Assembly (NCBI RefSeq): GCF_022271405.1
Contig: NZ_JAJNAL010000002.1
Coordinates: 124,001 to 188,000 of the forward strand
Direction of reading: 5' to 3'
Length of the DNA stretch: 64,000 nucleotides
DNA from: Rhodopseudomonas infernalis
Lineage (GTDB): Bacteria; Pseudomonadota; Alphaproteobacteria; Rhizobiales; Xanthobacteraceae
The position numbers were made by a program, and so were the translations under genes. Below the pieces are notes generated by a model. That model was not told the origin of the DNA. It saw only the letters and a program-made list of their open reading frames with translations, and did no database searches. Of this stretch, positions 4,285-21,693 are shown piece after piece; the first letter of the stretch is position 1, and every line of letters starts with the position of its first letter.

Positions 4285-5796
4285 ATGACTCTGAATCTCA
4301 AGACCTCGACCGTCGAGACCCGCGAGCAGCGGCTCGGCACCATCATCGGCTGGGACGGTACGGCCTCGAAGCTCGCCGATGAATCGGCGTTCTCGCGCGG
4401 CGATTGCGGCGGCTGCGGCTCCAAGGCGCGGCGGGTCTGCGAGCTCGAAGGGCCGTTCACGCAGGGCTCGGTGTGCAGCGAGCAGATGGTCGAATGCCAG
4501 GCCGGCAACATCCGCGACGCCGTGCTGGTCCAGCATTCGCCGATCGGCTGTGGCGCGGGGCAGGTGATCTATAATTCGATCTATCGAAACGGGCTCGCGA
4601 TGCGCGGCCTGCCGGTGCAGAACATCCGCTTCATCTCGACCAATCTACGCGAGCGCGACATGGTCTATGGCGGTGCCGACAAGCTCGCGGTCGCCATTCG
4701 TGCGGCGGTCGAACGCCACGCGCCGAAGGCGGTGTTCATCGCCACCTCTTGCGCCAGCGGCATCATCGGCGACGACGTCGAGAGCGTCGCGCGCGCCGCC
4801 GAGGCGGAGTTCGGCATCCCGATCATCCCGCTGCACTGCGAGGGCTTCAAGTCCAAGCACTGGTCGACCGGCTTCGACGCCACCCAGCATGGCATCCTGC
4901 GCCAGATCGTGCGCAAGAATCCGGAGACCAGGCAGGACGACCTGATCAACGTCATCAATCTGTGGGGCACCGACGTGTTCACCCCGATGCTGGCCGAGCT
5001 CGGGCTGCGGGTGAACTACGTCGTCGACATGGCGACCGTCGAGCAGCTCGCGCAGATGTCGGAGGCGAGGGCGACCGTGAGCTTCTGCTACACGCTCGGC
5101 ACCTATCTCGCGACCGCGCTCGAGCAGGAATTCGGCGTCGAGCAGATCAAGGCGCCGCAGCCCTACGGCTTCCCCGGCACCGATTCCTGGCTGCGCGAAT
5201 TGGCCCGCGTCACCGGCCGCGAGGCGCAGGCCGAGGACTACATCGCCCGCGAGCACGCGCGGGTGAAGCCGCTGCTCGACGAGCTCCGTCCGAAGCTGAA
5301 GGGCCTCAAGGGCTATGTCGCGACCGGCTCGGCCTATTCGCACGGGTTGATCGGCGTGCTGCGCGAGATCGGCGTCGAGGTCGACGGCTCGCTCGTGTTT
5401 CATCATGACCCAGTCTACGATTCCGAGGATCCGCGCCAGGATTCGCTCGGCCACCTGGTCGAGAACTACGGCGACGTCAGACATTTCACCGTTGGTAATA
5501 GGCAGCAGTACCAGTTCTACAATCTCCTGCAGCGGGTGAAGCCGGACTTCATCATCATCCGCCACAACGGCCTCGCGCCGCTCGCGGCGCGTCTCGGCAT
5601 TCCGGCGATCCCGCTCGGCGACGAGCATCATGCGCTCGGCTATCAGGGCATGGTCAATTTGGGCGAGTCGATCCTGGCGGCGTTGCAGCACCGCAAATTC
5701 CATCAGGACATCGCGAAGCGCGTGAGCCTTCCCTACAAGCAATCCTGGCTGGCCCAGCCGGATCCGTTCGCGCTCTCCCGCGCCGCCGTCGCCTAG
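4285..5796 (+). CDS. marD: NifD-like catalytic subunit, methylthio-alkane reductase alpha
   Basis: In the known Mar enzyme the MarDK complex reductively cleaves C-S bonds of small methylthio-alkanes, releasing methanethiol for methionine synthesis plus ethylene, ethane or methane. The P-cluster cysteines are C64, C89 (SPIGCGAG) and C156 (SCASGIIGDD). C268 (FCYTLGTYL) aligns with the FeMo-co ligand Cys275 of NifD. By hand alignment, nitrogenase active-site residues are changed: Val70 to C71, Gln191 to W193, His195 to F197, and the His442 position to Q454 (Y-Q-G), with a His-His pair five residues before it. Loss of His195 argues against N2 reduction as the main role. The 503-residue length fits. 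The ATG at 4285 follows marH by 66 bp. Mar assignment is by family features and context, not by search. Confidence 0.82.
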   Translation: MTLNLKTSTVETREQRLGTIIGWDGTASKLADESAFSRGDCGGCGSKARRVCELEGPFTQGSVCSEQMVECQAGNIRDAVLVQHSPIGCGAGQVIYNSIYRNGLAMRGLPVQNIRFISTNLRERDMVYGGADKLAVAIRAAVERHAPKAVFIATSCASGIIGDDVESVARAAEAEFGIPIIPLHCEGFKSKHWSTGFDATQHGILRQIVRKNPETRQDDLINVINLWGTDVFTPMLAELGLRVNYVVDMATVEQLAQMSEARATVSFCYTLGTYLATALEQEFGVEQIKAPQPYGFPGTDSWLRELARVTGREAQAEDYIAREHARVKPLLDELRPKLKGLKGYVATGSAYSHGLIGVLREIGVEVDGSLVFHHDPVYDSEDPRQDSLGHLVENYGDVRHFTVGNRQQYQFYNLLQRVKPDFIIIRHNGLAPLAARLGIPAIPLGDEHHALGYQGMVNLGESILAALQHRKFHQDIAKRVSLPYKQSWLAQPDPFALSRAAVA

Positions 5797-5806
5797 AGGA
5801 ATCCCC

Positions 5807-7189
5807 ATGGCCATCCTTGCCCTCAAATCGCGCCCGAACGAGATCACGCCGGACGCCGACAAATCCGGCCCGATCGAACTGGTGCGTTACGTCTGCGCGA
5901 TCGGCGCGATGCAGAGCGCCGCCGCGATCCCGCGCGTGGTGCCGATCACCCATTGCGGCCCCGGCTGCGCCGACAAGCAGTACATGAACCTCGCGTTCTA
6001 CAACGGCTTCCAGGGCTCGGGTTACGGCGGTGGCCCGGTCGTGCCCAGCACCAACGCGTCGCAGCGCGAAGTAATCTTCGGCGGCGCCGACCGGCTCCGC
6101 GAACTGATCGAATCGACGCAGCTCGTCCTCGATGCCGATCTGTTCGTGGTGCTGACCGGCTGTATCCCCGATCTGGTCGGCGACGATGTCGGCTCGGTCG
6201 TGCGCGATTTCCAGAAGAAGGGCGTGCCGATCGTCTATGCCGAAACCGGCGGCTTCCGCGGCAACAATTTCACCGGCCATGAGGCGGTGACGCAAGCGAT
6301 TATCGAGCAATATCTCGGCCCGTGGGACGGCGTGCGGGAGCAGGGCCTGGTCAATCTCTGGTCGCTGCTGCCGTATCAGAACACGTTCTGGCGCGGCGAT
6401 CTCGAAGAGATCAAGCGGCTGCTTGAGAGTATCGGCCTGAAGGTCAACGTGTTGTTCGGCCCGGACTCGGCGGGGCTCAGCGAGTGGCGCAGCATTCCGC
6501 GCGCCCAGTTCAACGTGGTGCTGTCGCCATGGCTGGGTCTCGCGACCGCGAAGCTGCTCGAAGAGCGCTACGACCAGCCGTATCTGCACATCCCGGTGCT
6601 GCCAATCGGCGCGCGGCAGAGCGGCGAGTTCCTGCGCAAGGTCGCCGAATTCGCGGGTCTGGCGGCCGGGCCGGTGGAGCAGGTGATCGCCCGCGAGGAG
6701 ACACGCTATTACAACTACATCGACGGCTTCACCGATTTCTACTCGGAATATTGGTGGGGGCTGCCGGCGCGGTTTGCGGTGATCGGCGACAGCGCCTACA
6801 ATCTGGCTCTGACGAAGTTTCTCGTCACCCAGCTCGGTCTGATCCCGGCCAAGCAGATCGTCACCGAGGATCCGCCGGTCGAACATCGCGAGGCGATCCG
6901 CGAGCAGTTCCGTGCCATCGACCACGACGTCTCGGTCGAGATCGAATTCGCCGAGGACAGCTACCTAATCCACGATGCGATCCGGAAAGCGGATTTCGGC
7001 CACAAGCCGCCGATCATCTTCGGCACCACCTGGGAACGCGATCTGGTCAAGGAGATGAAGGGCTCGCTGATCGAGGTCGGCTTCCCGGCCTCCTACGAGG
7101 TGGTGCTGTCGCGCAGCTATGTCGGCTATCGCGGCGCGCTGTCGCTGCTCGAGCGGATCTACAGCACGGTCGTCAGCCACAGCGCGTGA
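5807..7189 (+). CDS. marK: NifK-like subunit, methylthio-alkane reductase beta
   Basis: This is the beta subunit paired with MarD. Three P-cluster cysteines are visible: C30 (YVCAIGAM), C54 (HCGPGC) and C119 (LTGCIPDLVGDD). Their 24- and 65-residue spacings are like NifK's, so an eight-iron P-cluster shared with MarD is possible. At 460 residues it lacks the long N-terminal arm of NifK in molybdenum nitrogenases. It starts 10 bp after marD with AGAGGAA just upstream of the ATG. No nifE, nifN or nifX homologue follows, so the cofactor is presumably matured on MarDK itself from the MarB product; that is inference. The gene ends at a hairpin before the convergent ssu genes. Confidence 0.84.
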   Translation: MAILALKSRPNEITPDADKSGPIELVRYVCAIGAMQSAAAIPRVVPITHCGPGCADKQYMNLAFYNGFQGSGYGGGPVVPSTNASQREVIFGGADRLRELIESTQLVLDADLFVVLTGCIPDLVGDDVGSVVRDFQKKGVPIVYAETGGFRGNNFTGHEAVTQAIIEQYLGPWDGVREQGLVNLWSLLPYQNTFWRGDLEEIKRLLESIGLKVNVLFGPDSAGLSEWRSIPRAQFNVVLSPWLGLATAKLLEERYDQPYLHIPVLPIGARQSGEFLRKVAEFAGLAAGPVEQVIAREETRYYNYIDGFTDFYSEYWWGLPARFAVIGDSAYNLALTKFLVTQLGLIPAKQIVTEDPPVEHREAIREQFRAIDHDVSVEIEFAEDSYLIHDAIRKADFGHKPPIIFGTTWERDLVKEMKGSLIEVGFPASYEVVLSRSYVGYRGALSLLERIYSTVVSHSA

Positions 7190-7370: not shown

Positions 7371-8324
7371 TCAGGACGCCGGCGACCACTTCCAGACGAT
7401 GTCGCGCACGTTGATCGGCTTCGGAATCAGGCCGAGCTTGTGAAACCGGTCGGCGGTCTTCTGCTGGGCGGCGAGATATTTGTCGGTCACGGGAGTCACC
7501 TCGAAGACCGAGCGATCGACCAGGATCTTGATCACGCCCGGATCGACGCCCGTCGAGGCGGCGAGCGATTTGGTGATCTCGTCGTGATGGCTGTTGGCCC
7601 ATTGCGCTTCCTCGGCGAAGCTCTGGTTCAGCAGCGCGACCACATCGCCGTGGGCGTTTGTGAACTCGCGATTGGCGAGAAAGAAGCCGATCGTTTCGTG
7701 AGCGTCGCCGGCGAAATTCACGACTCGCGCACCGCTCTTCTCGGCGAGCGCCAGATAGGGATCCCATATCGCCCAGGCGTCGACGGTGCCACCGGCGAAG
7801 GCCGCGGTGCCGTCGGCCGGCGCGAGATACACTGGCGTGACGTCGGAGAACTGCAGGCCCGCCTTCTCGAGGATCGCCACGGCCGTGTTGTGCGCGCTCG
7901 ATCCCTTCGGGATCGCGATCCGCTTGCCCTTGAGATCGGCGGCGGTCTTGATCGGCGAGTTCGCCGGAACGACGATGCCTTCGTTCTTGCCGGAGCCGGG
8001 CAGCGCCGCGACGTAGAGCAGATTGGCGGTGGCGGCCTGCGCGAAGATCGGCGGCGTGTCGCCGGTGTAGCCGAAATCGATATTGCCGGTGTTGAGCGCC
8101 TCGAGCAGCGGCGGCCCGAACGCGAACTCGACCCACTTCACGGACAGACCCTTCTCCTTCAGCGCCGCTTCGAGAACTCCGCGCTCTTTCACCGCGGGTT
8201 GAATGCCGGCCTTCTGGAAGCCGATGCGGACTTCCTTCAACTCAGCGGCAAACGATGGTGCGACGGAGGTCGCAGCAAAAGCAGCAAAGGCAAGGGCGAG
8301 TAGCGATCTGCGCGATGTGATCAT
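7371..8324 (-). CDS. Aliphatic sulfonate-binding protein, second SsuA paralogue
   Basis: This is a periplasmic binding protein of the SsuA/TauA (NMT1-like) family for an ABC importer of sulfonates. The signal peptide at residues 1-26 has a twin-arginine-like start (TSRRSLLALAF) and a likely cut after SFA. Family motifs include VRIGFQKAG, FGYTGDTPPIFAQA, PKGSSAH and WAIWDPYLA. The ATG at 8324, with GGAG about 11 bp upstream, is preferred over an in-frame start 25 residues earlier, which would bury the signal peptide. It is the last gene of the ssu region, separated by 200 bp from the flavin reductase gene, so it may have its own promoter. It is a paralogue of the ssuA at 11970-12920 and may serve the same permease with a different ligand range. 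Confidence 0.88.
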   Translation of the reverse strand: MITSRRSLLALAFAAFAATSVAPSFAAELKEVRIGFQKAGIQPAVKERGVLEAALKEKGLSVKWVEFAFGPPLLEALNTGNIDFGYTGDTPPIFAQAATANLLYVAALPGSGKNEGIVVPANSPIKTAADLKGKRIAIPKGSSAHNTAVAILEKAGLQFSDVTPVYLAPADGTAAFAGGTVDAWAIWDPYLALAEKSGARVVNFAGDAHETIGFFLANREFTNAHGDVVALLNQSFAEEAQWANSHHDEITKSLAASTGVDPGVIKILVDRSVFEVTPVTDKYLAAQQKTADRFHKLGLIPKPINVRDIVWKWSPAS

Positions 8325-8420
8325 GTGATGGCTCCGACGTAACGTTGATGGGCGATCATTAGAGGCACCAACGCCGTCCGGGTGAATTCCAAAGATCAAT
8401 GTAATAAGTACAAACTATTC

Positions 8421-8447
8421 TTCCGACTTTCGGCGATCAGGTCGGAA
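8421..8447. promoter_or_regulatory. Inverted repeat upstream of the second ssuA
   Basis: TTCCGAC (8421-8427) and GTCGGAA (8441-8447) form a perfect 7-bp inverted repeat with a 13-bp spacer. It lies about 100 bp upstream of the ssuA2 start in an AT-richer stretch (8395-8425) that could hold the promoter. The layout suits an operator for a dimeric (LysR-like) regulator; a terminator for the flavin reductase gene is the alternative. Confidence 0.4.
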
Positions 8448-8525
8448 TGTTCTCAGCCAGTCGGCGCGCGATGAGATTCGGCGTCAGACGGGCGCGGGGG
8501 CGGGCTACTACCGCCTTTCGCTGCC

Positions 8526-9092
8526 CTACCTGTGACCCGGCACGCTCACTTCGGCGAGCCGTATCAGATCCTCGTCCCGGTCGATCGCGACGTAGCTGCC
8601 CTGCCAATAGGTCAGCGATGATTTGCGCGGCAGCGTCGCGGTACGGATCACGCGCCCGATCAGGATTGCGTGGGTGTGGCGCTTGATGCTCTCGTCGAGT
8701 TCGCACTCGATCGTCGCCAGCGAACCGCTGAGCACCGGTGCGCCGGACAGCCCGGTGCTCCATGCGTCGCCGGCGAACCGCGCGTCGCCCTTGAGGCCGC
8801 CTTTTCCGGCAAATCGCTCGCCGATCTCGATTTGATCGGCAGCGAGGACATTGACGGCGAAGGTTCGGCTCCGCGCCAACAAAGGCCCCGCCGAGGATTG
8901 CTGATTGAGGCAGACGATGAGCGTCGGCGGCGTCATCGACAGCGAGGTGACCGCGGTCGCGGTCATGCCGACGCGTTCGGCGCCGGCGCCCGCGGTGATG
9001 ATGGAGACGCCGCTGGCGAGCTGGCGCATCGCATGGGCGAAGTCGGCCGGCGTCGCGGATCGGAGGCTGTCGTCGTGGCGTGCCAGGTTCAT
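8526..9092 (-). CDS. NAD(P)H:flavin reductase, partner of SsuD
   Basis: This is a flavin reductase-like (FMN-binding split-barrel) protein that would supply FMNH2 to the SsuD monooxygenase. The conserved start LASGVSIITAG is followed by GMTATAVTSLSMTPPTLIVCLN and by FAVNVLAADQ, and HTHAILIGRV comes later, as in HpaC/SsuE-type two-component reductases. At 188 residues it has the length of the HpaC-like family and does not resemble the flavodoxin-like E. coli SsuE. It starts 7 bp after ssuB in the same operon. Function is inferred from family and position. Confidence 0.85.
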   Translation of the reverse strand: MNLARHDDSLRSATPADFAHAMRQLASGVSIITAGAGAERVGMTATAVTSLSMTPPTLIVCLNQQSSAGPLLARSRTFAVNVLAADQIEIGERFAGKGGLKGDARFAGDAWSTGLSGAPVLSGSLATIECELDESIKRHTHAILIGRVIRTATLPRKSSLTYWQGSYVAIDRDEDLIRLAEVSVPGHR

Positions 9093-9099
9093 CGCCGCC

Positions 9100-9951
9100 T
9101 CAAAGTTCGAAGGCTCCCTCGGAGCCTTTCAACAGGTCGCGCAGAATCTCGCCCTCGAGCGCCGCGAGTTCGGCCGAGCCGCGCTGGCGCGGGCGGGGAA
9201 GGTCGACAACGATGTCGTTGGAGATCCGGCCGTCCTCGATCACCAGCACGCGGTCGGCGAGCGCGACCGCTTCGGCGACATCATGCGTCACCAGGATCGC
9301 GGTGAAGCCCTGATCCTGCCAGACCTGTTCCAGCAGCCGCTGCATGGCGATGCGCGTTAGCGCATCGAGTGCACCCAGCGGCTCGTCAAATGCCAGCACG
9401 CGCGGCTGGCTGACCAGTGCACGCGCCAGCGCCACGCGCTGCTTCTGCCCGCCGGACAACACCGCCGGCCACTGGTCGCGCTTGTCGTCGAGGCCGACCT
9501 CGATCAGTGCGGCATCGGCGCGCCCGCGCGCGTCGGGCGAGTTGCGGTCGGCGCCGAGCCCGACCTCGACATTGGACAGCACGCGCGCCCACGGCAGCAG
9601 CCGTGGCTCCTGAAACATCACGCGGACGTCTCCGGGCTGGCGCTCCTCGCCGAACGAGATGTTGCCGCTGGTCGGCGCGTCGAGTCCCGCGATCAGCCGC
9701 AGCAGCGTGCTCTTGCCGCAGCCGCTGCGCCCGACGATGGTGACGAACTGGCCGGCGGGGATGTGCAGATCGATGCCGCGCAGCACGTCGTTGTCGCCGA
9801 ACGATTTGCGCAAGGCACGGATCGTCAGCGGCAGGCCGCGGGTGTCGGCGTCGCCGTGCTGCCGTCCGTCCTTGGCGGTGACGTGATCGGCGGGCTCAGC
9901 CGCGGCGGTCCGGCTGTCGGCGAGAATGAACTGAAGCGCTTCCATCATCAT
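9100..9951 (-). CDS. ssuB: Aliphatic sulfonate ABC transporter ATPase
   Basis: This is the ATPase of the sulfonate importer. Walker A is GRSGCGKST (residues 74-82), the signature is [15 protein letters not shown] (about 160-175), Walker B is VLAFDEP, and the H-loop is in VTHDVAEA. Three consecutive ATG codons (9951, 9948, 9945) can each start it; the first is used here, giving 283 residues. The frame stays open upstream through ssuC, but that part is a shadow. The 40-residue polar leader before the first strand is longer than usual. It sits 5 bp after ssuC, so the two are probably co-translated. Confidence 0.92.
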
Positions 9952-9956
9952 CGATC

Positions 9957-10763
9957 TCAGTTCTTCTGGAAGGCCGGATGCCAGGACAGGGTCAGGCGTT
10001 CGAGCAGCCGCGAAGCGCTGTCGGCTGCCTTGCCCAGCAGGGCGTAGATCAGGATGCTGAGCACCACGACGTCGATCAGCATGAATTCGCGCGCCTGCAT
10101 CGCCATGTAGCCGAGCCCCGACGAGGCCGCGATCGTCTCGGCGACGATCAGCGTCAGCCACATGATGCCGAGCGCGAAGCGGACACCGACGAACACCGAG
10201 GGCAGGGCGCCCGGGAAGATCACCCGGCGGAACAGCTCGACATTGGTCATGCCGTAGATGCGGCCCATCTCGATCAGTTGCGGATCGACGGTGCGGATGC
10301 CGTGTAGCGTGTTCAGGTAGATCGGGAAGAACACGCCGAGCGCGACCAGGAACAGCTTGGCCTGCTCGTCGATGCCGAACCACAGGATCACCAGTGGAAT
10401 CAGCGCCAGATGCGGCACGTTGCGGACCATCTGCAGCGTGGTGTCCGACAGTTTCGAACTGAGGCTGGACAGGCCGTTGGCGAGGCCGAAGGCAAAGCCG
10501 ATCAGGCCGCCGATCGCGAAGCCGACCGAAGCCCGCCAGAAGCTGACCCAGATGTTCTTCGCCAGATCGCCGGATTGCAGCAGCTTCCAGCCGGCGACGA
10601 CGACGTCGGTCGGCGCGGGCAGGACCCGTGATGAAACCAGACCGAACATGCAGGCGGCCTGCCAGACAAGGATGATCAGCAGCGGCACGATCCACTGGAT
10701 CAGGCCGTCGGCACGGGGCAGACGCCAGGCGCGCGGGCGGGCGAGCGTTTCGACGAGGCTCAT
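9957..10763 (-). CDS. ssuC: Aliphatic sulfonate ABC transporter permease
   Basis: This is an inner-membrane permease (BPD_transp_1) of 268 residues with about six hydrophobic segments. The ATPase-docking loop [16 protein letters not shown] is followed by the usual IFPGALPSV. The ATG at 10763 overlaps the end of ssuD by 4 bp, as is common in ssuDCB operons; the longer upstream frame is antisense-like shadow inside ssuD. Together with ssuA and ssuB it makes a full importer for alkanesulfonates. Confidence 0.93.
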
Positions 10764-11935
10764 GGTTTGGCGGCCTGTTTGGTTTGGGGGACCAGTTCGT
10801 TGGCGATCGTTTCGCCGAACGGGCCGGTGTTGGCGCGGAGCTTGGTGACGTTGCCCTCGTGCTGCGGCTTGACCAGCGGGAACACCAGCTCGGCGAAGCG
10901 ATAGGCTTCCTCCAGATGCGGGTAGCCGGACAGGATGAACGTATCGATGCCGACGTCCTGATATTCCTTGATCCGCGCGGCCACAGTCTGCGGGTCGCCG
11001 ACCAGCGCGGTGCCCGCGCCGCCGCGGACGAGGCCGACGCCGGCCCACAGATTGGGGCTGATCTCGAGCTTGTCTCGCCGGCCGCCGTGCAATTGCGCCA
11101 TCCGCTGCTGCCCGACCGAATCCATCCGCGAGAACACCTTTTGCGCGGCGGCGATGGTGTCGTCGGTGACGTAGCGGATCAGATCGTCCGCCGCGGCCCA
11201 GGCGGCCTCGTTGGTTTCGCGCACGATCACATGCAGCCGGATGCCGAACGACAATTTGCGACCGCGCGGTTCCGCCACGGCGCGGACGCGGGCGACCTTG
11301 TCGGCGACCAGCTCCGGCGGCTCACCCCACGTGAGATACTTGTCGACGGTGTCGGCGGCGACGTCGATGCCGGCATCCGACGAGCCGCCGAAATACAGCG
11401 GCGGCCTCGGCGTCTGCACCGGCGGAAATAGCAGCCGGCCGTCTTCAATCGTGATGTGCTTGCCGGCGACGTTGACGGTCTTGCCCGACAACAAATCGGA
11501 ATAGACGTTGAGGAATTCGCGGGTGACCTCGTAGCGCTCGTCGTGCGACAGGAATATGCCGTCACCCTTGTTCTCGACCGGATCGCCGCCGGTGACAACG
11601 TTGATCAGCAGGCGTCCGCCGGTGACGCGGTCGAGTGTCGCCGTCATCCGCGCTGCAACGGTCGGCGATTGCAGGCCGGGGCGGACGGCGACCAGATAGC
11701 GCAGCCTCTCGGTCCACGGTGCCACCGCGGAGGCGACGACCCAGGAATCCTCGCAGCTCCGGCCCGTGGGCAGCAGTACGCCGAAATAGCCGAGCTGATC
11801 GGCGGCCTGCGCGATCTGGCGCAGATAGTTGAAATTCACGTCGCGGCCGCCGGCGCTCGTGCCGAGATAATGCCCGTCGCCGTGGGTGGGCAGGAACCAT
11901 AGGAAATGGGCGCCCGGCGCGTGGAGTGAACTCAT
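10760..11935 (-). CDS. ssuD: FMNH2-dependent alkanesulfonate monooxygenase
   Basis: SsuD uses FMNH2 and O2 to cleave C1-C10 alkanesulfonates to aldehyde and sulfite in the cytoplasm. The sequence begins with the family hallmark [15 protein letters not shown] in slightly changed form ([16 protein letters not shown]). It keeps the active-site cysteine (GRSCEDSW), the [16 protein letters not shown] segment that holds Arg226 and His228 of E. coli SsuD, and the lid tyrosine ([10 protein letters not shown]). The ATG at 11935 is preferred to the one at 11941, because GGGAG lies 7 bp before the former and abuts the latter. The 391-residue length fits. It follows ssuA by 34 bp. It needs oxygen, in contrast to the two reductive systems on either side. 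Confidence 0.95.
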
Positions 11936-11969
11936 CCGCATTCTCCCTTGTTCTGTTTGTTATGGGCGT

Positions 11970-12920
11970 TCAGGCCTGCGTCGGGGTCCAGACCGCGTCA
12001 CGCACCACAATCGGCCGTGGAATCAGTCCGAGCTGATGGAAACGATCGGCGACGCCCTGCTGTGTCGCGATGATGTCGTCGGTGATCAGCCCGACGGCGA
12101 ACGACGATCGGTCCGCGGCGATGGTTTGAATATCCAGCGGAATGCCGGTGACGGCGCTGAGCGATTGTGCGACGTCGCCGCGATGCTGCTCCGCCCATTG
12201 CGCGGTGGCGCTGGTGACGTCGATGACCTGCTTCAGGATCTGCTTGTTGCGCTGCGCGAAGTCACGATTTGCGATGTAGAACGAGTTGGTGCGGCCGACC
12301 TCGGACGCGTTGACCAGAACCCGTCCGTTCTGTTTCAACTCGCCGATCGCGAAATACGGATCCCAGATCGACCACGCGTCGATGCTGCCCTGCGCGAAGG
12401 CGGGGCCGGCATCGGGCGGCGTCAGATAGACCGGGGTGATGTCGGCGTAGCTCAGGCCGGCCTTGGCCAGCACCAGCAGCACGACGTTGTGGGCGCTCGA
12501 GCCCTTGGTGAAGCCGATTCGTTTGCCCTTGAGATCGGCCAGCGTCCGGATTGGTGAATCTTGCGGGACCAGAATGCCCTGGCCGTTGGTGATCGGCTGG
12601 CCTGCGGCATAGACGATCGCCGCGCCTGCGGCCTGTGCGAAGATCGGCGGCGAGTCGCCGACCGCGCCGTAGTGAATGCTGCCGACGTTCATCGCCTCCA
12701 GCATCGGCGGGCCGGAGGAAAACTCGACCCACTTCACCCCGATCTTCTGTGGCGCGAAATGCTCTTCCAGGGCGCGACGCTGGCGCGCGATCACCAGCAC
12801 GCCGTTCTTCTGATAGCCGATGCGGATCTCTGTCGGCGAAGCGTCGGCAGAAGCGCTGGCCCCGAAGCCGGGTAGCAGCGCTAAGCCGGCTGACAAAGTG
12901 AGGAAGTCCCGTCGCTTCAT
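11970..12920 (-). CDS. ssuA: Aliphatic sulfonate-binding periplasmic protein
   Basis: This is the periplasmic receptor of the ssu importer and the first gene of the - strand operon. The N-terminus MKRRDFLTLSAGLALLPG is a twin-arginine-type signal peptide with cleavage likely after ASA or SADA (about residues 25-27). The mature part has the SsuA motifs IRIGYQKNG, GAVGDSPPIFAQA, TKGSSAHN and WSIWDPYFA. The ATG at 12920 gives 316 residues; the longer open frame upstream has no signal-like start. It faces the second nitrogenase-like set across a 474-bp divergent spacer, so the two may share control. Confidence 0.92.
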   Translation of the reverse strand: MKRRDFLTLSAGLALLPGFGASASADASPTEIRIGYQKNGVLVIARQRRALEEHFAPQKIGVKWVEFSSGPPMLEAMNVGSIHYGAVGDSPPIFAQAAGAAIVYAAGQPITNGQGILVPQDSPIRTLADLKGKRIGFTKGSSAHNVVLLVLAKAGLSYADITPVYLTPPDAGPAFAQGSIDAWSIWDPYFAIGELKQNGRVLVNASEVGRTNSFYIANRDFAQRNKQILKQVIDVTSATAQWAEQHRGDVAQSLSAVTGIPLDIQTIAADRSSFAVGLITDDIIATQQGVADRFHQLGLIPRPIVVRDAVWTPTQA

Positions 12921-13394: not shown

Positions 13395-14612
13395 ATGCCG
13401 ACGGTGAGCGAATTGAAGGAAGGGCTCTGGCGCGAGCTCGCCCTGAAGGCTGAGCTTGGAATCAACGGCGTCGCCATCAGCGGGGAAGCGCTCGAACTGA
13501 TCCAGCCGGGGATCAAGGCGCAGGAACAGGTGCACTGTCTGTTCGAAATGGATTTCGAGACTCACACCGTCGAGCTGCCGTCGCACTTCTATCTGCCGCT
13601 GGGACTGACCACGCCGTTCCGCTGGAATCCGCGTTCGTCCTATCGGATCGACGCGCTCGACGGGCGGACGGTGCTGCGTGACGGCGACCGCGTTCTGTCC
13701 GAGATCGCCTTCTATCAGCGTCCGGCATTCTACAGCGCTAGAACCTCCGACGGCATCGAAATATCCAACATCGGCGCCCACTATGCCGAGCGGCATCTGT
13801 TCGTCGTCTACAGCAACGAATGTTCTTACAAGGAGAAGGGCGAGGATTGCCTGTTCTGCAACATCAATCACACCAAGGACGTCTATGGCGGCCGGCAGAA
13901 CGTCTTCTGGAAAAACGCCAAGCAGATCGGCGAGACCGCGGCGCGGGCCTACAAGGACGGTGCGATCGACCATCTAACGGTCAGCGGCGGCGTCATCCCG
14001 GAGCGGCGTGAGCTGGAATACTATCTCGACGTCGCCGAGGCGATCCAGCGGCATACGGGACGTGATGACTTCAACGGCACCGCGACGGTCGCGGCGCCGC
14101 TCGATCTGCGCAACATCGATCGCTTCAAGGAAGCGGGCTACCGGACAACCGCGATGAATATCGAGATCTGGGACAAGGGCATCTACGATGCGATCTGCCC
14201 CGGCAAGGCGCGCGGTGGTGGCGGCTGGGAGCATTGGGTCAAGGCGCTCGAACACGCCGCCAAAGTGTTCGGCCATGGCCGGGTTCGCTCGAATATCGTC
14301 GCCGGCATTGAGCCGAAACGCAGCACGCTCGCCGGCCTGGAGTATTTGGCGTCGAAAGGTGTGGTCGGCACCTTCACGGTGTGGTGCCCGAATCCCGGCT
14401 CCGAGTTGGAGGGCCACCGTTCGCCCGAGCCCGGCTGGTATCTCGACCTCGCGCACAAGCTGGTCGCGATCTGGAAGAAGAACGGCATCAGCTACGAGCA
14501 CGTGTTCGACAGCCACGCCTCGTCGGACACGTTGCAGCACGACATCTACCGGATCGAGGACGAATTGCTGCCGGTGTTCGCCACCGCCAAGCAGCTCGAG
14601 CCGGCCGAATAG
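13395..14612 (+). CDS. Radical SAM protein with CX8CX2C motif, first gene of the second nitrogenase-like set
   Basis: I recognise a radical SAM-type barrel but not a named family. The putative cluster motif is C143, C152, C155 ([13 protein letters not shown]), a CX8CX2C spacing instead of the classical CX3CX2C. It is preceded by a strand (HLFVVYSNE) and followed by a Gly-Gly motif ([11 protein letters not shown]) and by later barrel strands ([46 protein letters not shown]). It is not NifB: it lacks HPCF and the C-terminal CRADA motif. The first 130 residues form a separate N-terminal domain. The start is uncertain: ATG 13395 gives 405 residues, ATG 13341 adds 18. It precedes the NifH-like gene by 40 bp. 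It may mature a cofactor or substrate for the H-D-K proteins, or act on the same substrate. Confidence 0.75.
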
Positions 14613-14652
14613 GCCGTCGCGCAATCGATCAGGCAGAGCAATCGGGGGAATC

Positions 14653-15525
14653 GTGAGCAGCGGAAAAGCCAAGCACATCGCCATCTACGGCAAGGGCGGC
14701 ATCGGCAAATCGACGACGACGTCGAACATCAGCGCGGCGCTGGCCGAGGCGGGGCATCGCGTCATTCAGATCGGCTGCGATCCGAAGAGCGACTCGACCA
14801 CCATCCTGCGCGGCGGCGAGGATCTGCCGACCGTGCTCGACAGCCTGCGCGACAGCGGCCGACCGACCATCGCTGACGTCTCGGCGACCGGCTTCGGCGG
14901 CGTGCTGTGCATCGAGGCCGGCGGGCCGGTGCCGGGCGTCGGCTGCGCCGGCCGCGGCATCAACGCGGCGGTGGACCTGCTGCACGAGCTGAAGCTGTTC
15001 GAAGAGTTCAAGCCGGACTACGTGCTGTACGACGTGCTCGGCGACGTGGTGTGCGGCGGCTTCGCGGTGCCGATCCGCAACGGTATTGCCGAATCTGCCT
15101 TCGTGGTGACGTCGTCGGACTTCATGGCGATCTTCGCGGCCAATAATCTGTTCAAGGCGATCAGCAAGTATGCGCCGTCCGGCGGCGCCCGGCTCGGCGG
15201 CGTGATCGCCAACAGCATCCAGACGTCGTACGCGTCGTCGCTGATCGACGATTTCGCGGCGCGGACCGGCACCAGCGTGGTCGGCTACGTGCCGCGGTCT
15301 CTGACAGTGGCGCAGAGCGAACTTTACGGCCAGACCGTGATCGAAGCCGCGCCGACATCCGAGCAGGCCGATGTCTATCGCCAGCTCGCGCGCCATATCG
15401 CCAGCGATCACCCGGTCGCGATCCCGAAGCCGCTGAATGGGCCCGCTCTGAAAGACTGGGCCAAGCAATGGGGCGACCGTGTGTTCGGCGCACCTGCGGA
15501 GCGATCATTGGCCGAGGCGGTGTGA
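14653..15525 (+). CDS. NifH-like iron protein of the second, unassigned nitrogenase-like set
   Basis: This is an ATP-dependent [4Fe-4S] reductase of the NifH/BchL/CfbC superfamily, 290 residues. The P-loop GKGGIGKS is at residues 13-20. The switch segment GCDPKSDST keeps the cysteine (C42) that marH lacks. The cluster ligands are C98 (GVGCAGRG) and C134 (GDVVCGGF), and the DraT-target arginine is R101. The GTG at 14653 has an excellent GGGGGAA 3-9 bp upstream. It is closely similar to marH over the first 35 residues. The stop at 15525 is one base before the GTG of the D-like gene, which implies coupled translation. It should donate electrons to the D-K pair that follows. Confidence 0.88.
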
Positions 15526-15526
15526 C

Positions 15527-16888
15527 GTGACCAGGCAGTTGCAACCGCCGACGCGCGAGCGGCGGCTCGGCGCGCTCAGCGCCTATCTGGGCGATGTCGG
15601 CTCGCTGATCGCGGAGTTCGAGGCTGGGCCGCCAGTTACCCGGATCCGCACGTTCTCCCAGGTTGCCGTGGACGACGTGTCGGCCGCCCTGCAGGTTCTT
15701 ACTGAAACCGACGGGCTGGGGATCATCGTTCATGGTGCGCGCGGATGCGCTGGCGCGTTGGCCGCGGCGGAGGCCGACCGGCCGTGGGCGGTCACCAATC
15801 TCGATCAGCGTGACACCATCCTCGGCGCCGACGGTACGCTCGCGCGGACGCTGCGGCAGCTTCATCTTCGGCACCGGCCGTGGGCAATCGTCGTGGTGGC
15901 GACGCCGGTGGTGGCGATCAACAACGACGACATTCAATCCGTCGCCGAAGAACTGAGCGACGAACTCGGCATTCCGATCATCGAGCTGCGCACCGACGGC
16001 TTTCGCTCGAGGGTCGCCGCGACAGGACTCGACATCGCCGCGCAGGCGATCGCGACACTGGTGCCGCCCGGCGGAGCGCGACAGAGGGACGTGATCAACC
16101 TGCTGGCGCTCGAACGCGGGCCGGGGTTGGCCGGCGTCGTGCAAGCGATCGAGAGCCTCGGCCTCGCGGTCAATCTGTTTCCGGTTGGCGCAGGCCCTGC
16201 CACATTTGCCAGAGCGGCGCAGGCCGTGTTGAGCGTGGCTGTGTTCGAGGACGAGACCGATGCATTGCGGCGCGAGCTCGACCGGCTGCACGGCGTGCCG
16301 TTCCTGCGGCTGCCGCCGCCGATCGGCGCTGCGGCGACACAACGCTTCGTTGCTGCGATCGCGGCCGCGACCGAGCGGACCGCGCCGGCGCCCGTTGCCG
16401 ACACGCACGATGTCCGGATCCTCAACGGCCGCAGCGTCGTCGTGGCTCTGCCGCCGTCCAGCGCGTTGGCCGTCGCTGAACTCGTCGATCGGTTCGGCGG
16501 CGAACTCGTGGGTCTCAGCGTCGACTGGGTCGACAGTCTGCATCTCGACGGATTGCGAACCATCGGGACCGCACATCCCGAGCTGCCGCTGCATGTCGCG
16601 GCAGGGCAGCCGTTCGAGCTGGTCAACTGGCTCGGCCGCATCGCTCCGGATCTAGTCATCGGCACACCCGCGACTGCGGCGACGGCGGCGCGCGCCGGCA
16701 TTGCGGCAGTCGCGGTCGGCGCCGACGATCTGCTCGGCGCCTCCGGCGAAACCCGTCTCGGGTCGCGGATCCAGCGACTGCTGGATGGTCAGGCCCTGAA
16801 GCAACGGCTCGCCGCGCCGGCTGCGAGCTATCTCGCGGGGTGGATGAAGCGCAGTCCCGACTGGCACATCAAACGCGAGGTGAGATGA
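15527..16888 (+). CDS. NifD/BchB-like subunit with a single cysteine, second nitrogenase-like set
   Basis: This is a nitrogenase component-1-like (Oxidored_nitro) protein of 453 residues, starting with GTG at 15527. The only cysteine in the whole protein is C74, in VHGARGC, the position of the second P-cluster cysteine of NifD. The loop that carries the third cysteine in NifD (before GDD) reads VATPVVAINNDD, with none. No cysteine matches the cofactor ligand Cys275. It therefore cannot hold a standard P-cluster half or a NifB-derived cofactor in the known way. With the three cysteines of its partner it could complete one [4Fe-4S] cluster. It overlaps the K-like gene by 4 bp (ATGA). Function unknown; the motifs, not overall similarity, place it in the family. 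Confidence 0.8.
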   Translation: MTRQLQPPTRERRLGALSAYLGDVGSLIAEFEAGPPVTRIRTFSQVAVDDVSAALQVLTETDGLGIIVHGARGCAGALAAAEADRPWAVTNLDQRDTILGADGTLARTLRQLHLRHRPWAIVVVATPVVAINNDDIQSVAEELSDELGIPIIELRTDGFRSRVAATGLDIAAQAIATLVPPGGARQRDVINLLALERGPGLAGVVQAIESLGLAVNLFPVGAGPATFARAAQAVLSVAVFEDETDALRRELDRLHGVPFLRLPPPIGAAATQRFVAAIAAATERTAPAPVADTHDVRILNGRSVVVALPPSSALAVAELVDRFGGELVGLSVDWVDSLHLDGLRTIGTAHPELPLHVAAGQPFELVNWLGRIAPDLVIGTPATAATAARAGIAAVAVGADDLLGASGETRLGSRIQRLLDGQALKQRLAAPAASYLAGWMKRSPDWHIKREVR

Positions 16889-18156
16889 TGGCGGCGTCTC
16901 TGGCGCGACCGCGCGCCGGCTGCGCGCTGCACGGCGCGCTGTATGCGGCATCGGCCATCGATGGCGTCACGCCGCTGGTGCATGCGACGCCGGGCTGCGG
17001 CCTGCAGGCCGGCCTCTGGCAAGGCCACGTCGGCTGCGGTGCCGCGGGCGGTTGGGCTACGTCCAATCTGTCGGAGAAGCACATCGTGTTCGGCGGCGCG
17101 TCGCGGCTGCGCGAGCAGATCAAGAACACCGGCGGGATTATCCCCGGCGAGCTGACGGTGGTGATGACCGGCTGTCCGGCCGAAATGATCGGCGACGACG
17201 TCGAGGCGATGGCGCGGGAGGCCCGCGACCTCGGTCACAACGTGCTCGATCTGGCGACGGCGGGATTTCGTGGCTCGGCCTATCACGGTTACGAAGCCTT
17301 TCTCAAAGGTGCGATCGGGACTTCGCAGGGCATTGCTCCGCGACGCGCCGGGCTGATCAACATTTTCGGTCCGGTGCCGCATCAGGATGCGTTCTGGCTC
17401 GCCGAGATCGAAGAGCTGTCGCGGTTGATTGCGGGCGTCGGTCTCACACCCAATCCGGTGTTCGGGCCGCAAGGCGACGTCGCGGGCCTCCGCGCTGTTG
17501 CGCAGGCCGAACTCAGCCTGTCGGTGTCGCCGTGGGGCACCGCCGCCGCTCGCGCGCTCGACGATGGCTTCGGCGTGCCGTGGGTCGAGAGTGGCAGCCT
17601 GCCGATCGGCGCGATCGCAACGACGAAGCTGCTCGAGCAGGTCGTCGCCGCCGTCAGCGACATTGACGACAGCACGGCGCAGGCTTTCATCGATGCGGAA
17701 CGACGGCGCGAAGCCTATTGTCTCGATCATCTGCTGGAAACGCTCTACCGCCAGGGCGGCCCGCGCAGCTTCGCCATTGCGGTGCCAAGCCTGCACGCCA
17801 CGGGCATTGCGCGCTTTCTGATCGAGACGCTCGGCTGGTCACCGGTGTGCATCGTCGTCACCGACAATCCGCCGCCGGGTGCTCGCGAATCGCTACAGGC
17901 CGGCCTGGGAGCCGTGCACTACAGCGAGGACGACGACGAGATTGCTCAACTCATCGCCGGCAGCGGCGCGGAGTTCGTGTTCGGGAGCGCGCTGGAGCGC
18001 TCGACGGCCGCGAAACTGGGCGTGCCGCTGATCGAATGTGCAGCGCCGACGCGCAGGCTTGGCCTGACGACCGGCTTCGGTGGTTGTCGCGGCGGGCTCG
18101 CGCTTCTCGAAACCATCGTGACGTCGATCTCTGACGTTCAGAAGCCGGCCAGATAG
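16885..18156 (+). CDS. NifK/BchN-like subunit with three cluster cysteines, second nitrogenase-like set
   Basis: This 423-residue component-1-like protein is the partner of the single-cysteine subunit. C13 (RAGCALHGAL), C38 (HATPGCGLQ) and C97 (MTGCPAEMIGDD) match the three P-cluster cysteines of NifK in order and spacing (25 and 59 residues); C51 (GHVGCG) is extra. The D-like to K-like ratio is thus one to three, as in chlorophyllide reductase BchY/BchZ. A second in-frame ATG at 16888 has the better distance from GAGG and is an alternative start. The gene ends 33 bp before a tRNA-Ser on the other strand, with no clear terminator. Absence of bch neighbours and the low overall likeness argue against a pigment role, but I cannot exclude another tetrapyrrole substrate. 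Confidence 0.82.
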   Translation: MMAASLARPRAGCALHGALYAASAIDGVTPLVHATPGCGLQAGLWQGHVGCGAAGGWATSNLSEKHIVFGGASRLREQIKNTGGIIPGELTVVMTGCPAEMIGDDVEAMAREARDLGHNVLDLATAGFRGSAYHGYEAFLKGAIGTSQGIAPRRAGLINIFGPVPHQDAFWLAEIEELSRLIAGVGLTPNPVFGPQGDVAGLRAVAQAELSLSVSPWGTAAARALDDGFGVPWVESGSLPIGAIATTKLLEQVVAAVSDIDDSTAQAFIDAERRREAYCLDHLLETLYRQGGPRSFAIAVPSLHATGIARFLIETLGWSPVCIVVTDNPPPGARESLQAGLGAVHYSEDDDEIAQLIAGSGAEFVFGSALERSTAAKLGVPLIECAAPTRRLGLTTGFGGCRGGLALLETIVTSISDVQKPAR

Positions 18157-18189: not shown

Positions 18190-18279
18190 TGGCGGAAGGG
18201 GTGGGATTCGAACCCACGGTACCCTTGCGGGCACGCCGGTTTTCAAGACCGGTGCCTTAAACCACTCGGCCACCCTTCC
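18190..18279 (-). tRNA. tRNA-Ser (anticodon TGA)
   Basis: The 5' acceptor GGAAGGG (18279-18273) pairs with CCCTTCC (18200-18194), followed by discriminator G and an encoded CCA (18192-18190). The anticodon loop CTTGAAA reads TGA. A long variable arm, as expected for tRNA-Ser, and the T-loop GGTTCGAATCC are present. It is close to the E. coli tRNA-Ser(TGA) throughout. It is convergent with the end of the second nitrogenase-like set. Confidence 0.97.
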
Positions 18280-19909: not shown

Positions 19910-20794
19910 ATGGTGGTCGTCACCGCGGTGGCGCGCATCATCGGTGCCCCAAGGGGCGCGAGCGGCAAGGCCGGCATTTTGAACGCAGCAGCGGGCATCG
20001 GTCATTCAACCAATCTCGTCGGCGTGCCGATGGGATATCTCACCGATGTTGCCTTCAACGATCAGCCGTTGCCGCTGCACGTCGCCGGCGTGCGCGAGAT
20101 GAACCCGAGCCTGTTCGAAATGCTCGGCCAGGCGGCCGATCTCGCCGAAGCCGGCGATGCATTCGCCTGTTACATGAATGCGCTGTTCGGTATCGATCCG
20201 GAGCAGCGCATCCGCAGCGGCGCCAGTGGTGGGCGCCGGCGCTTCCGCTCGTCTTTCCTCGACCTGATCAAGGGCTGGGGCTTCGACAGCAACGGACCGG
20301 AGGGCGCGGTGCTGAAGGGGTGGGTTGAAAGCCGGTTCGGCATCTTCCCGACGTTCCACAAGCAGCCGCTCACGCAGATCGTCAGCCCTGCTTGGACGAG
20401 CTACGTCGAGCAGAAGATGTCGAGTCGCTTCCATAACAACGCCATCACCGTGCAGCTCGACCTGTTGTACGAGTTCTGCCAATGGGCGCTCGCGCATTTC
20501 ACCGCGGCGGGAAGTACGCATTTAACGCTGTATCGCGGTGTCAATGATTTCGACGAACACCAGATCGTGCATCGCCTCGACAAGCGCCATGTCGTGATGC
20601 GGCTGAACAATCTGACCTCGTTCTCGTCGGATCGCAGCGTTGCGGATTGCTTTGGCGACACCATCCTGACGGTCCGTGTGCCGGTGCCGAAGATTCTGTT
20701 CTTCAACCGGCTGCTCGCCGCGCATCCGCTGAAGGGTGAGGGCGAGTATCTGGTGATCGGCGGCGCCTATCGGGTCACCGCGAGCTACTTCTGA
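19910..20794 (+). CDS. draT: NAD+-dinitrogen-reductase ADP-ribosyltransferase
   Basis: DraT switches off nitrogenase by ADP-ribosylating one arginine (Arg100/101) of NifH, using NAD+, when ammonium or darkness is sensed. The 294-residue protein has the DraT opening GHSTNLVGVPMGYLTDV and LYRGVND (NAD-binding arginine). Further on come a serine-rich LTSFSSDRSVAD and the catalytic glutamate region GEGEYLVIGGAYRV. The chosen ATG at 19910 leaves a 30-residue leader; AGGAGG lies rather far upstream (about 16 bp). It is followed after 8 bp by draG. Notably it is near the two nitrogenase-like H genes and no nif genes are in view. Confidence 0.93.
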   Translation: MVVVTAVARIIGAPRGASGKAGILNAAAGIGHSTNLVGVPMGYLTDVAFNDQPLPLHVAGVREMNPSLFEMLGQAADLAEAGDAFACYMNALFGIDPEQRIRSGASGGRRRFRSSFLDLIKGWGFDSNGPEGAVLKGWVESRFGIFPTFHKQPLTQIVSPAWTSYVEQKMSSRFHNNAITVQLDLLYEFCQWALAHFTAAGSTHLTLYRGVNDFDEHQIVHRLDKRHVVMRLNNLTSFSSDRSVADCFGDTILTVRVPVPKILFFNRLLAAHPLKGEGEYLVIGGAYRVTASYF

Positions 20795-20802
20795 GAGGCG
20801 CC

Positions 20803-21693
20803 ATGGCCGAACCGAGCATCGACGAACGAGCGCTAGCCGCCTATCTCGGCTTTGCGATCGGCGACGCTCTGGGCGCAACCGTCGAGTTCATGACGCGATC
20901 GGAAATCGCGGAACGCTACGGCGTGCACAACGAGATCGTCGGCGGCGGCTGGCTCCGGTTGAAGCCGGGGCAGGTGACCGACGACACCGACATGGCGTTG
21001 GCGCTCGGCCGGTCGCTGATCCGCTGCGGCGGCTTGAATGTGCACGACGTCTGCGAGGAATTCGCTGCGTGGCTGAAGACCGGACCGGTCGATGTCGGCA
21101 GCACCTGCCGTCGTGGCATCCGTCGCTACATCACGACCGGTAGCGTGGAAGGTCCGTATTTCGAGGGTGACGCGGGCAACGGTGCAGCGATGCGCATTCT
21201 GCCGCTGGCGCTGGCGACTTACGGACGCCCGGCCGAGGCGGAAGCGTGGACCATCGCGCAGGGGCACATCACCCACCACCATCCGCTGTCCGATGGCGCC
21301 GCCGTGGCGCTGGTGCGAATGCTGCACGCGTTGCTCCGCGGCGAGGGGCCCGCGCAGGCGCATGCGATAGCGGACGAACTGGTGCAGCGCCATCGCAGCT
21401 TCGGGTTCCAGCCGTATCGCGGCCAGTCGTCCGCCTATGTGGTGGATACGATGCAGACCGTGCTGCACTTCTATTTCAGCACGGACAGTTTTGCCGATTG
21501 CGTGATCGCGACGGTCAATCAGGGTGGTGACGCCGACACCACCGGAGCGCTGGCAGCGATGCTCGCTGGCGCGACCTACGGACTTGCAGCGCTGCCGAAG
21601 CGTTGGCTCGATCGGCTGGATCGGACTGTCGTGTCCGCTGCACGCGATCAAGTGCCGCGTCTGTTAGCATTGTCGTCGCGTGCATCTTTGTAA
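20803..21693 (+). CDS. draG: ADP-ribosyl-[dinitrogen reductase] hydrolase
   Basis: DraG removes the ADP-ribose that DraT adds, restoring Fe-protein activity. It is a dinuclear Mn/Mg enzyme of the ADP-ribosylglycohydrolase fold. The metal ligands are visible in VTDDTDMAL near residue 60 and in GGDADTTGALAAMLAG near 245; other family motifs are GFAIGDALGATVEF and GDAGNGAAMRILPLAL. The 296-residue length is typical. It starts 8 bp after draT, so the two opposed enzymes are co-expressed and balance is presumably set by PII proteins and membrane sequestration, as known in related bacteria. Confidence 0.94.
   Translation: MAEPSIDERALAAYLGFAIGDALGATVEFMTRSEIAERYGVHNEIVGGGWLRLKPGQVTDDTDMALALGRSLIRCGGLNVHDVCEEFAAWLKTGPVDVGSTCRRGIRRYITTGSVEGPYFEGDAGNGAAMRILPLALATYGRPAEAEAWTIAQGHITHHHPLSDGAAVALVRMLHALLRGEGPAQAHAIADELVQRHRSFGFQPYRGQSSAYVVDTMQTVLHFYFSTDSFADCVIATVNQGGDADTTGALAAMLAGATYGLAALPKRWLDRLDRTVVSAARDQVPRLLALSSRASL

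Follow-up and report, generated by a model that had tools for sequence, protein, structure and literature searches.

The isethionate reductase genes isrBHDK were named in 2024 in Rhodobacter capsulatus (rcc02237-02234), where the evidence came from deletion mutants, complementation with isethionate lyase, and transfer to a second species (PMC11423573). In that organism B, H, and DK were each required for anaerobic growth with isethionate as the sole sulfur source; isethionate lyase substituted for DK, and it was therefore concluded that sulfite is released; R. sphaeroides gained the trait from isrBHDK together with ssuCAB; and IsrD and IsrK copurified carrying iron-sulfur (Fe-S) clusters (PMC11423573). 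Models of Isr were built in PMC12330013, and the Isr paper is among the references of PMC11659671 and PMC13067680. We analyzed a 64,000-nucleotide stretch of Rhodopseudomonas infernalis (contig NZ_JAJNAL010000002.1; the whole stretch is referred to as the window) in which four genes at positions 13395 to 18156 almost certainly form an isrBHDK ortholog within the isethionate reductase family. Taken as a whole, the set is probably an O2-independent assimilatory sulfonate reductase whose IsrB most likely acts on the substrate in each turnover. It is a new member of a nitrogenase-like family that frees sulfonate sulfur without oxygen, the family itself having already been described.

Three other described systems bear on this comparison. 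The methylthio-alkane reductase MarBHDK (Mar; PMC12552129; PDB 9fmg and 9d9u) shares the H-D-K architecture, is the nearest sister, and also performs reductive C-S cleavage, but it has a NifB-like MarB, the P-cluster cysteines, and Cys270/His429 as ligands of an [Fe8S9C] cluster. The isethionate lyase IslAB, a glycyl radical enzyme with its activase, has the same substrate and sulfite product as Isr and replaces isrDK in R. capsulatus, although it belongs to an unrelated protein family and lacks an ATP-driven H-D-K. DPOR (BchLNB) and COR (BchXYZ) likewise have a component 1 without an FeMo-co-type cofactor but differ in acting on tetrapyrroles and in forming separate branches in our tree.

An isrBHDK-type gene set in R. 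infernalis

The four genes are as follows.

13395..14612, + strand: isrB, radical S-adenosylmethionine (SAM) protein, candidate substrate-acting enzyme (ATG start, 405 amino acids; NF045502 variant_rSAM, 435 bits)
14653..15525, + strand: isrH, NifH-type ATP-dependent reductase (GTG start, 290 amino acids; TIGR01287, 374 bits; PF00142, 319 bits)
15527..16888, + strand: isrD, component-1 subunit with a single cluster cysteine (GTG start, 453 amino acids; PF00148, 148 bits)
16885..18156, + strand: isrK, component-1 subunit with three cluster cysteines (ATG start, 423 amino acids; PF00148, 235 bits)

Gaps of 40 bp (B-H) and 1 bp (H-D) and a 4-bp overlap (D-K) separate them, as a first-pass annotation of the DNA had described; rereading of the open reading frames gave the same layout, and the NF045502, TIGR01287, and PF00148 matches confirmed the radical SAM protein, complete NifH-type protein, and component-1 pair that it had named. 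The gene set is real, far beyond chance, because the frames are intact, the family matches are full, and close orthologs occur in other species. IsrH is a complete NifH-type protein, its TIGR01287 score being slightly below the cutoff of 394.

The residues of the predicted metal sites follow the published pattern. In Isr, IsrD retains one of the three P-cluster cysteines, the other two positions being Arg and Pro or Ser, and IsrK retains all three (PMC11423573). The window proteins match this signature, with R41, C74, and P127 in IsrD, where C74 is the single cysteine of the entire chain, and C13, C38, and C97 in IsrK (residue set of 84 rows, at least three of them MarK). Relatives of IsrD were collected by a pattern scan with one genome per species, from which the best 80 of 93 loci were kept; many of the 80 are from Lachnospiraceae, and 30 are shorter than 20 kb, so that neighbors may be missed. 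Among these relatives R41 is present in 79 of 79 rows and C74 in 78, and position 127 is occupied by Pro (74 rows) or Ser (5 rows). The cluster cysteines of IsrH, residues 98 and 134, are invariant across 70 rows. IsrB carries the SAM-cluster motif C143-X8-C152-X2-C155 and an additional conserved C268-P-G-K, whose C268 is shared by 115 of 118 rows.

R. capsulatus SP108 (locus L079) was used to stand in for the characterized strain SB1003, since its cysteine numbering equals that published (D 74; K 12, 37, and 99; H 99 and 135). The window proteins are 63% (B), 80% (H), 42% (D), and 44% (K) identical to those of SP108. Against the Mar proteins of the window itself, the Isr proteins are 63% (H), 28% (D), and 31% (K) identical, and the B proteins gave a BLAST match of only 5 residues. 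A maximum-likelihood tree was built from 71 rows, D-like and K-like together. In it the 25 IsrD rows formed one clade (100/99) and the 25 IsrK rows another (100/99), and within each of these the window protein joined SP108 in an alphaproteobacterial clade of 7 rows (100/100). Next to the Isr clades come Mar and related rows, while the nitrogenase and Bch rows are more distant, the latter on long branches. A quick tree of IsrB, made without bootstrap, likewise placed the window protein with SP108 in a 10-row alphaproteobacterial clade (Shimodaira-Hasegawa-like approximate likelihood ratio test, 97).

As in R. capsulatus, the genes run in the order B-H-D-K, and a flavin-dependent monooxygenase and an Ssu-type transporter are encoded close by. 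The set differs in the modest identity of D and K and in its neighbors: an SsuD-type operon here, but xsc, tpa, tau, and NtaA-type genes in R. capsulatus. Its function here is a prediction. The first-pass annotation had proposed a nitrogenase-like set separate from the known ones, with a sulfur-containing substrate: the position of D and K in the tree agrees with the former, and the latter is likely. Its view that the function was undescribed does not hold, given the 2024 description of isrBHDK, and the deletion and growth test that it suggested had already been performed by others in R. capsulatus (PMC11423573).

Several IsrB copies per H-D-K

IsrD occurs once per genome in all 49 Isr genomes surveyed (at least 232 bits in one stretch, with the next tier at 176 bits or less), although in G919, G920, and G950 the gene was read as two pieces side by side (129 plus 128 bits in the last). 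IsrB is more variable: 19 of the 49 genomes, counted by eye, carry two to eight copies scoring above 330 bits. The largest numbers are in two Chlorobiaceae, G932 with eight and G928 with six, followed by four each in G922, G934, and G935 and three each in G926, G930, and G937. Within the 80 loci themselves, at least two B genes were present in 19 and two D genes in none. Copies were counted by profile search of all frames, because some high-GC gene calls were misjoined; the profiles were derived from the same loci, and L119 was left out of the genome counts.

Roughly half of the B genes adjoin genes for sulfonate-type transporters. A same-strand ATP-binding cassette (ABC) transporter gene is located within 300 bp of 60 of 117 B copies and within 3 kb of 78 (the 117 include one duplicate, a copy cut at the end of a stretch). 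When the duplicate was dropped and 74 genomes were thinned to 46, 17 of them with several B genes, the corresponding numbers were 36 and 51 of 77. The divergence of B tracked that of the adjacent binding protein (r = 0.77), whereas swapping cassettes within genomes gave a mean of 0.50 and reached the observed value in 1 of 2,000 swaps; for the permease and the ATPase it was reached in 2 and 21 of 2,000. After thinning, the swaps reaching it were 54 (binding protein), 42 (permease), and 183 (ATPase) of 5,000.

Neither several IsrB genes per H-D-K nor a methionine adenosyltransferase (MetK) gene beside isr was found in the open-license literature, as judged by titles and the starts of abstracts, and a term search of the main text of PMC11423573, supplements aside, returned no mention of MetK, nucleosidase, or paralogs. 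The pattern of several B genes per H-D-K, with MetK, across the family thus appears to be new. Arylsulfotransferase-like genes recur in the Isr loci L056, L060, L062, L067, L075, and L123 (PF05935 in the one scanned), and small PPOX-class FMN proteins occur in 21 of the 80 loci.

SAM supply genes in Isr loci

A MetK gene is present in 39 of the 80 Isr loci, and a gene resembling 5'-methylthioadenosine/S-adenosylhomocysteine nucleosidase is present in 22. Among 32 genomes compared by eye, 22 have a MetK gene no more than about 11 kb from isrD or isrB in addition to one elsewhere, and the remaining 10, including that of the window, have exactly one; these 32 were picked by hand from the 49 after some loci had been viewed, and the count over loci is the fairer figure. 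As a control, 180 Lachnospiraceae genomes were searched. IsrD exceeded 590 bits in three (the next match was at 340 bits), and the same three carried the IsrB class, in one case split across two contigs (277 plus 166 bits). All three have at least two MetK genes by eye. Genome G1037 matched NF045502 at 240 bits and also has component-1 genes, scoring up to 296 bits, that belong to a different class.

A maturase needs little SAM, while an enzyme that spends SAM in every turnover needs both its resupply and the removal of 5'-deoxyadenosine; the MetK and nucleosidase-like genes therefore favor turnover use. The telling point is the position of MetK in the isr locus, not a second MetK as such.

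Structure of IsrB and candidate substrate-binding residues

An AlphaFold2 model of IsrB from a 60-row alignment (mean predicted local distance difference test score [pLDDT], 93.9) contains a radical SAM barrel. Its nearest solved structure is lipoyl synthase (5exj; Z 18.7, 3.1 Å over 233 residues), followed by MqnE, HydE, and HydG (Z 17.9 to 17.1), and NifB follows at Z 16.0 (3.0 Å over 215 residues). Lipoyl synthase, MgmA, PylB, and HydE headed the Foldseek list, and IsrB, when searched by profile against solved structures, gave no match at an E value of 0.01. The model of IsrD (mean pLDDT, 85.7) is nearest to MarD (9fmg_A; Z 39.0, 2.4 Å over 413 residues).

Three arginines distinguish IsrB from a sister class within its NCBIfam family. 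Of 118 IsrB rows, 115 have Arg204, 117 have Arg205, and 117 have Arg342; among the 8 distinct sister-class genes the numbers are 0, 0, and 1. These genes retain the SAM-cluster cysteines, C268, G270, and K271 in 8 of 8. The eight genes remain from 11 rows after removal of two duplicates and of L126, a borderline IsrB; they are radical SAM genes at the following positions.

L059, 1425-2690
L055, 88-1602
L064, 1616-2866
L068, 5381-6643 and 15718-17088
L135, 15317-16600
L089, 6193-7449
L069, 15193-16446

Members of the sister class lie near isr loci and score 331 to 381 bits against the IsrB profile; two that were scanned gave 187 and 217 bits to NF045502. In the model the three arginines sit on the segments after strands 193-198 and 324-329. 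This side of the barrel is where radical SAM enzymes bind substrate, and Arg204, Arg205, and Arg342 are candidates to hold the sulfonate.

Proposed mechanism and alternatives

We hypothesize that an Ssu-type transporter would import isethionate or a close C2 sulfonate when sulfur is limiting and oxygen absent and that IsrBHDK would free sulfite for cysteine synthesis. IsrH would drive electrons into IsrDK at the expense of ATP, and the Fe-S site of IsrDK would be held by one cysteine of D and three of K. IsrB would not be a NifB-like cofactor builder; it would act on the substrate, using one SAM per turnover and setting the substrate range, and may form a 5'-deoxyadenosyl radical on the bound sulfonate. 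IsrHDK may then be a shared low-potential reductase whose electrons complete C-S cleavage. For this organism the substrate is likely to be isethionate or a close C2 sulfonate, because the single B of the genome is of the R. capsulatus type. That IsrB acts on the substrate itself is the somewhat favored possibility, because B is multicopy against one D, because it is linked to transporters, and because MetK occurs in the loci, none of which a maturase would need. The wider scheme, in which one H-D-K serves interchangeable IsrB proteins that each choose a different sulfonate, many with their own ABC transporter, in which one SAM per turnover explains the MetK and nucleosidase-like genes, and in which the three arginines hold the sulfonate, has in our view an even chance of being right.

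A number of observations weigh against a substrate-acting IsrB. Its proposed role is deduced from gene content and sequence comparison, and the SAM-supply argument from gene content; PMC11423573 does not name the carbon product of the Isr reaction. The codivergence of B with its transporters is modest after thinning, and cassettes moving as blocks would give the same signal; a B and a transporter that share a substrate would also fit a B acting on D-K. No same-strand transporter gene lies within 3 kb of 39 of the 117 B copies, among them that of the window, where the nearby transporter is on the opposite strand, and the Chlorobiaceae loci L058 and L062 have tandem B copies with no transporter between them. 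B and MetK each occur once in the genome of the window, MetK is likewise single in the five alphaproteobacterial genomes in which it was counted, a second MetK is not rare (24 of 177 Lachnospiraceae genomes without Isr), and the nucleosidase match is below its NCBIfam cutoff (107 versus 169 bits).

It is possible, though unlikely, that IsrB is instead an activase or maturase that installs a cofactor or radical in IsrDK once, after which IsrHDK alone would cleave the C-S bond. NifB and MarB play that part in sister systems, IslB activates IslA, NifB is among the structural matches of IsrB, and PMC11423573 keeps this option open. Such a role sits poorly with several B genes against one D in the 19 multicopy genomes, with the MetK and nucleosidase-like genes, and with an IsrD that lacks the NifB-type cofactor ligands (Cys275/His442; PMC11423573) and has one cysteine in all.

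The same machinery might also serve mainly another alkanesulfonate in this organism, such as taurine, methanesulfonate, or a longer one, a possibility that we rate equally doubtful. The neighboring operon is SsuD-type here and NtaA-type in R. capsulatus, SsuD-type enzymes have a broad substrate range, and D and K share no more than 42 to 44% identity with those of R. capsulatus. IsrB speaks for isethionate, being 63% identical and in the same alphaproteobacterial clade, and R. capsulatus handles taurine with other genes (PMC11423573).

A third and improbable alternative is that IsrHDK merely supplies low-potential electrons and that the bond breaking is entirely the work of IsrB. A varying B beside a single-copy H-D-K would fit this, as would a D that leaves no room for a large cofactor. 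However, a NifH-type protein alone could suffice for such a feed, and the conservation of a full D-K pair across phyla suggests a catalytic role. Since IsrH alone could in principle feed IsrB, the need for DK would imply one of two things: DK completes the reduction, or no other electron donor fits.

That the set is a Mar paralog is highly improbable: Mar is the nearest sister group and MarD the best solved relative of the IsrD model, but D and K fall outside the Mar clade, the Mar loop motif and the P-cluster cysteine set are absent, and IsrB is unlike MarB.

Exclusion of other nitrogenase-like families

The remaining families were rejected by score, tree position, or both. For the Mo, V, and Fe nitrogenases, D and K are under every nifD/nifK, anf, and vnf cutoff among the NCBIfam models matched. 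For DPOR and COR they lie outside BchN, BchB, BchY, and BchZ in the tree and under the bch cutoffs. CfbCD, which is absent from the D/K tree, was judged by the CfbC and CfbD cutoffs and rejected, with H at 324 of 402 bits and D and K at 22.6 and 27.4 of 268 bits; the separate D and K genes also differ from CfbCD, which has one D gene and no K. With respect to Mar, D and K stand outside the MarD/MarK clade, and IsrD lacks the loop-I Arg-His (R428-H429 of MarD), its sole Arg-His lying elsewhere in the chain, whereas the MarD of the window keeps IIIRHNG, the same as the solved MarD. The MarB of the window matches TIGR01290 nifB at 260 bits, while IsrB gave no match at an E value of 0.001. The proposal that the cysteines of D and the radical SAM partner set these genes apart from nif, anf, bch, and mar is thus upheld by tree, residues, and profile matches, and the suggested phylogeny check placed D and K outside the Bch and Mar clades.

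Distribution

A search for IsrD in an evenly drawn class sample of 385 genomes at an E value of 1e-30 or less returned only the genome of the window. In an order sample of 249 genomes, drawn likewise (E value of 1e-12 or less), it was joined by two strong relatives, G414 and G519 (E values of about 1e-112), and by weaker component-1 genes; in a phylum sample of 349 genomes at the same threshold only weaker component-1 genes were found besides the genome itself. Two distant plasmid records found with D were rejected as Isr because their component-1 proteins group with Mar. These component-1 sets, at 4098-13179 of L040 (Treponema saccharophilum plasmid pTS2) and 3702-8734 of L039 (a Candidatus Chlorohelix plasmid), carry NifX-type proteins and ABC transporter genes and group near Mar.

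Genomic surroundings

Divergent from isrB, the flank at 7371-12914 on the - strand is an ssu operon, and a complete Mar set lies upstream of it.

11970..12914, - strand: SsuA-type sulfonate-binding protein, divergent from isrB (NF008588, 302 bits; TIGR01728, 242 bits; start codon not fixed)
10760..11941, - strand: SsuD-type FMNH2-dependent alkanesulfonate monooxygenase (TIGR03565, 634 bits)
9957..10754, - strand: SsuC-type permease (NF008470, 342 bits; cutoff, 347)
9100..9900, - strand: SsuB-type ATPase (NF008420, 336 bits; cutoff, 395; start codon not fixed)
8526..9092, - strand: flavin reductase, likely the partner of the monooxygenase (PF01613, 132 bits)
7371..8330, - strand: second binding protein, sulfonate/nitrate type (PF09084, 58 bits; start codon not fixed)
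2345-3307, + strand: MarB
3343-4218, + strand: MarH
4285-5796, + strand: MarD
5807-7189, + strand: MarK

The same transporter may supply SsuD when oxygen is present and Isr when it is absent. The isr locus of SP108 holds an NtaA-type monooxygenase, ABC transporter genes, a thiamine pyrophosphate (TPP) enzyme, and a GntR-aminotransferase protein, in agreement with the gene list in PMC11423573.

The genome contains 16 PF00148 genes. Ten of them, on contigs C2 and C34, match the nifD, nifK, nifE, nifN, anfD, anfK, bchN, bchB, bchY, and bchZ models, and six are on the contig of the window: the two isr genes, the two Mar genes (MarD scoring 912 bits against 9fmg, a solved methylthio-alkane reductase), and a further D-K pair of Mar-like type that lies outside the window. 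This pair (L017 11210-14107, + strand; contig C12 115210-118107) groups with Mar and keeps the Arg-His motif. No H gene directly adjoins it in the list of open reading frames, and a NifB/MarB-like gene lies 6 kb away (L017 3883-4926, - strand; C12 107883-108926). The genes around it resemble what we take to be cysteine/methionine enzymes and an Xsc-like TPP enzyme.

Directly past isrK is a tRNA-Ser gene (anticodon TGA; 18190-18279, - strand); in the Rfam search only two tRNAs exceeded their gathering scores. About 1.8 kb after isrK, a draT-draG pair occupies 19910-20794 (PF07357, 363 bits) and 20803-21693 (PF03747, 226 bits) on the + strand. NifH is the known target of DraT-DraG.

With this set, the carriers of isr now include a Rhodopseudomonas-like phototroph. 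Its one genome offers isr, Mar, a Mar paralog, and an oxygen-dependent SsuD operon, so that several routes of C-S cleavage can be compared within a single organism.

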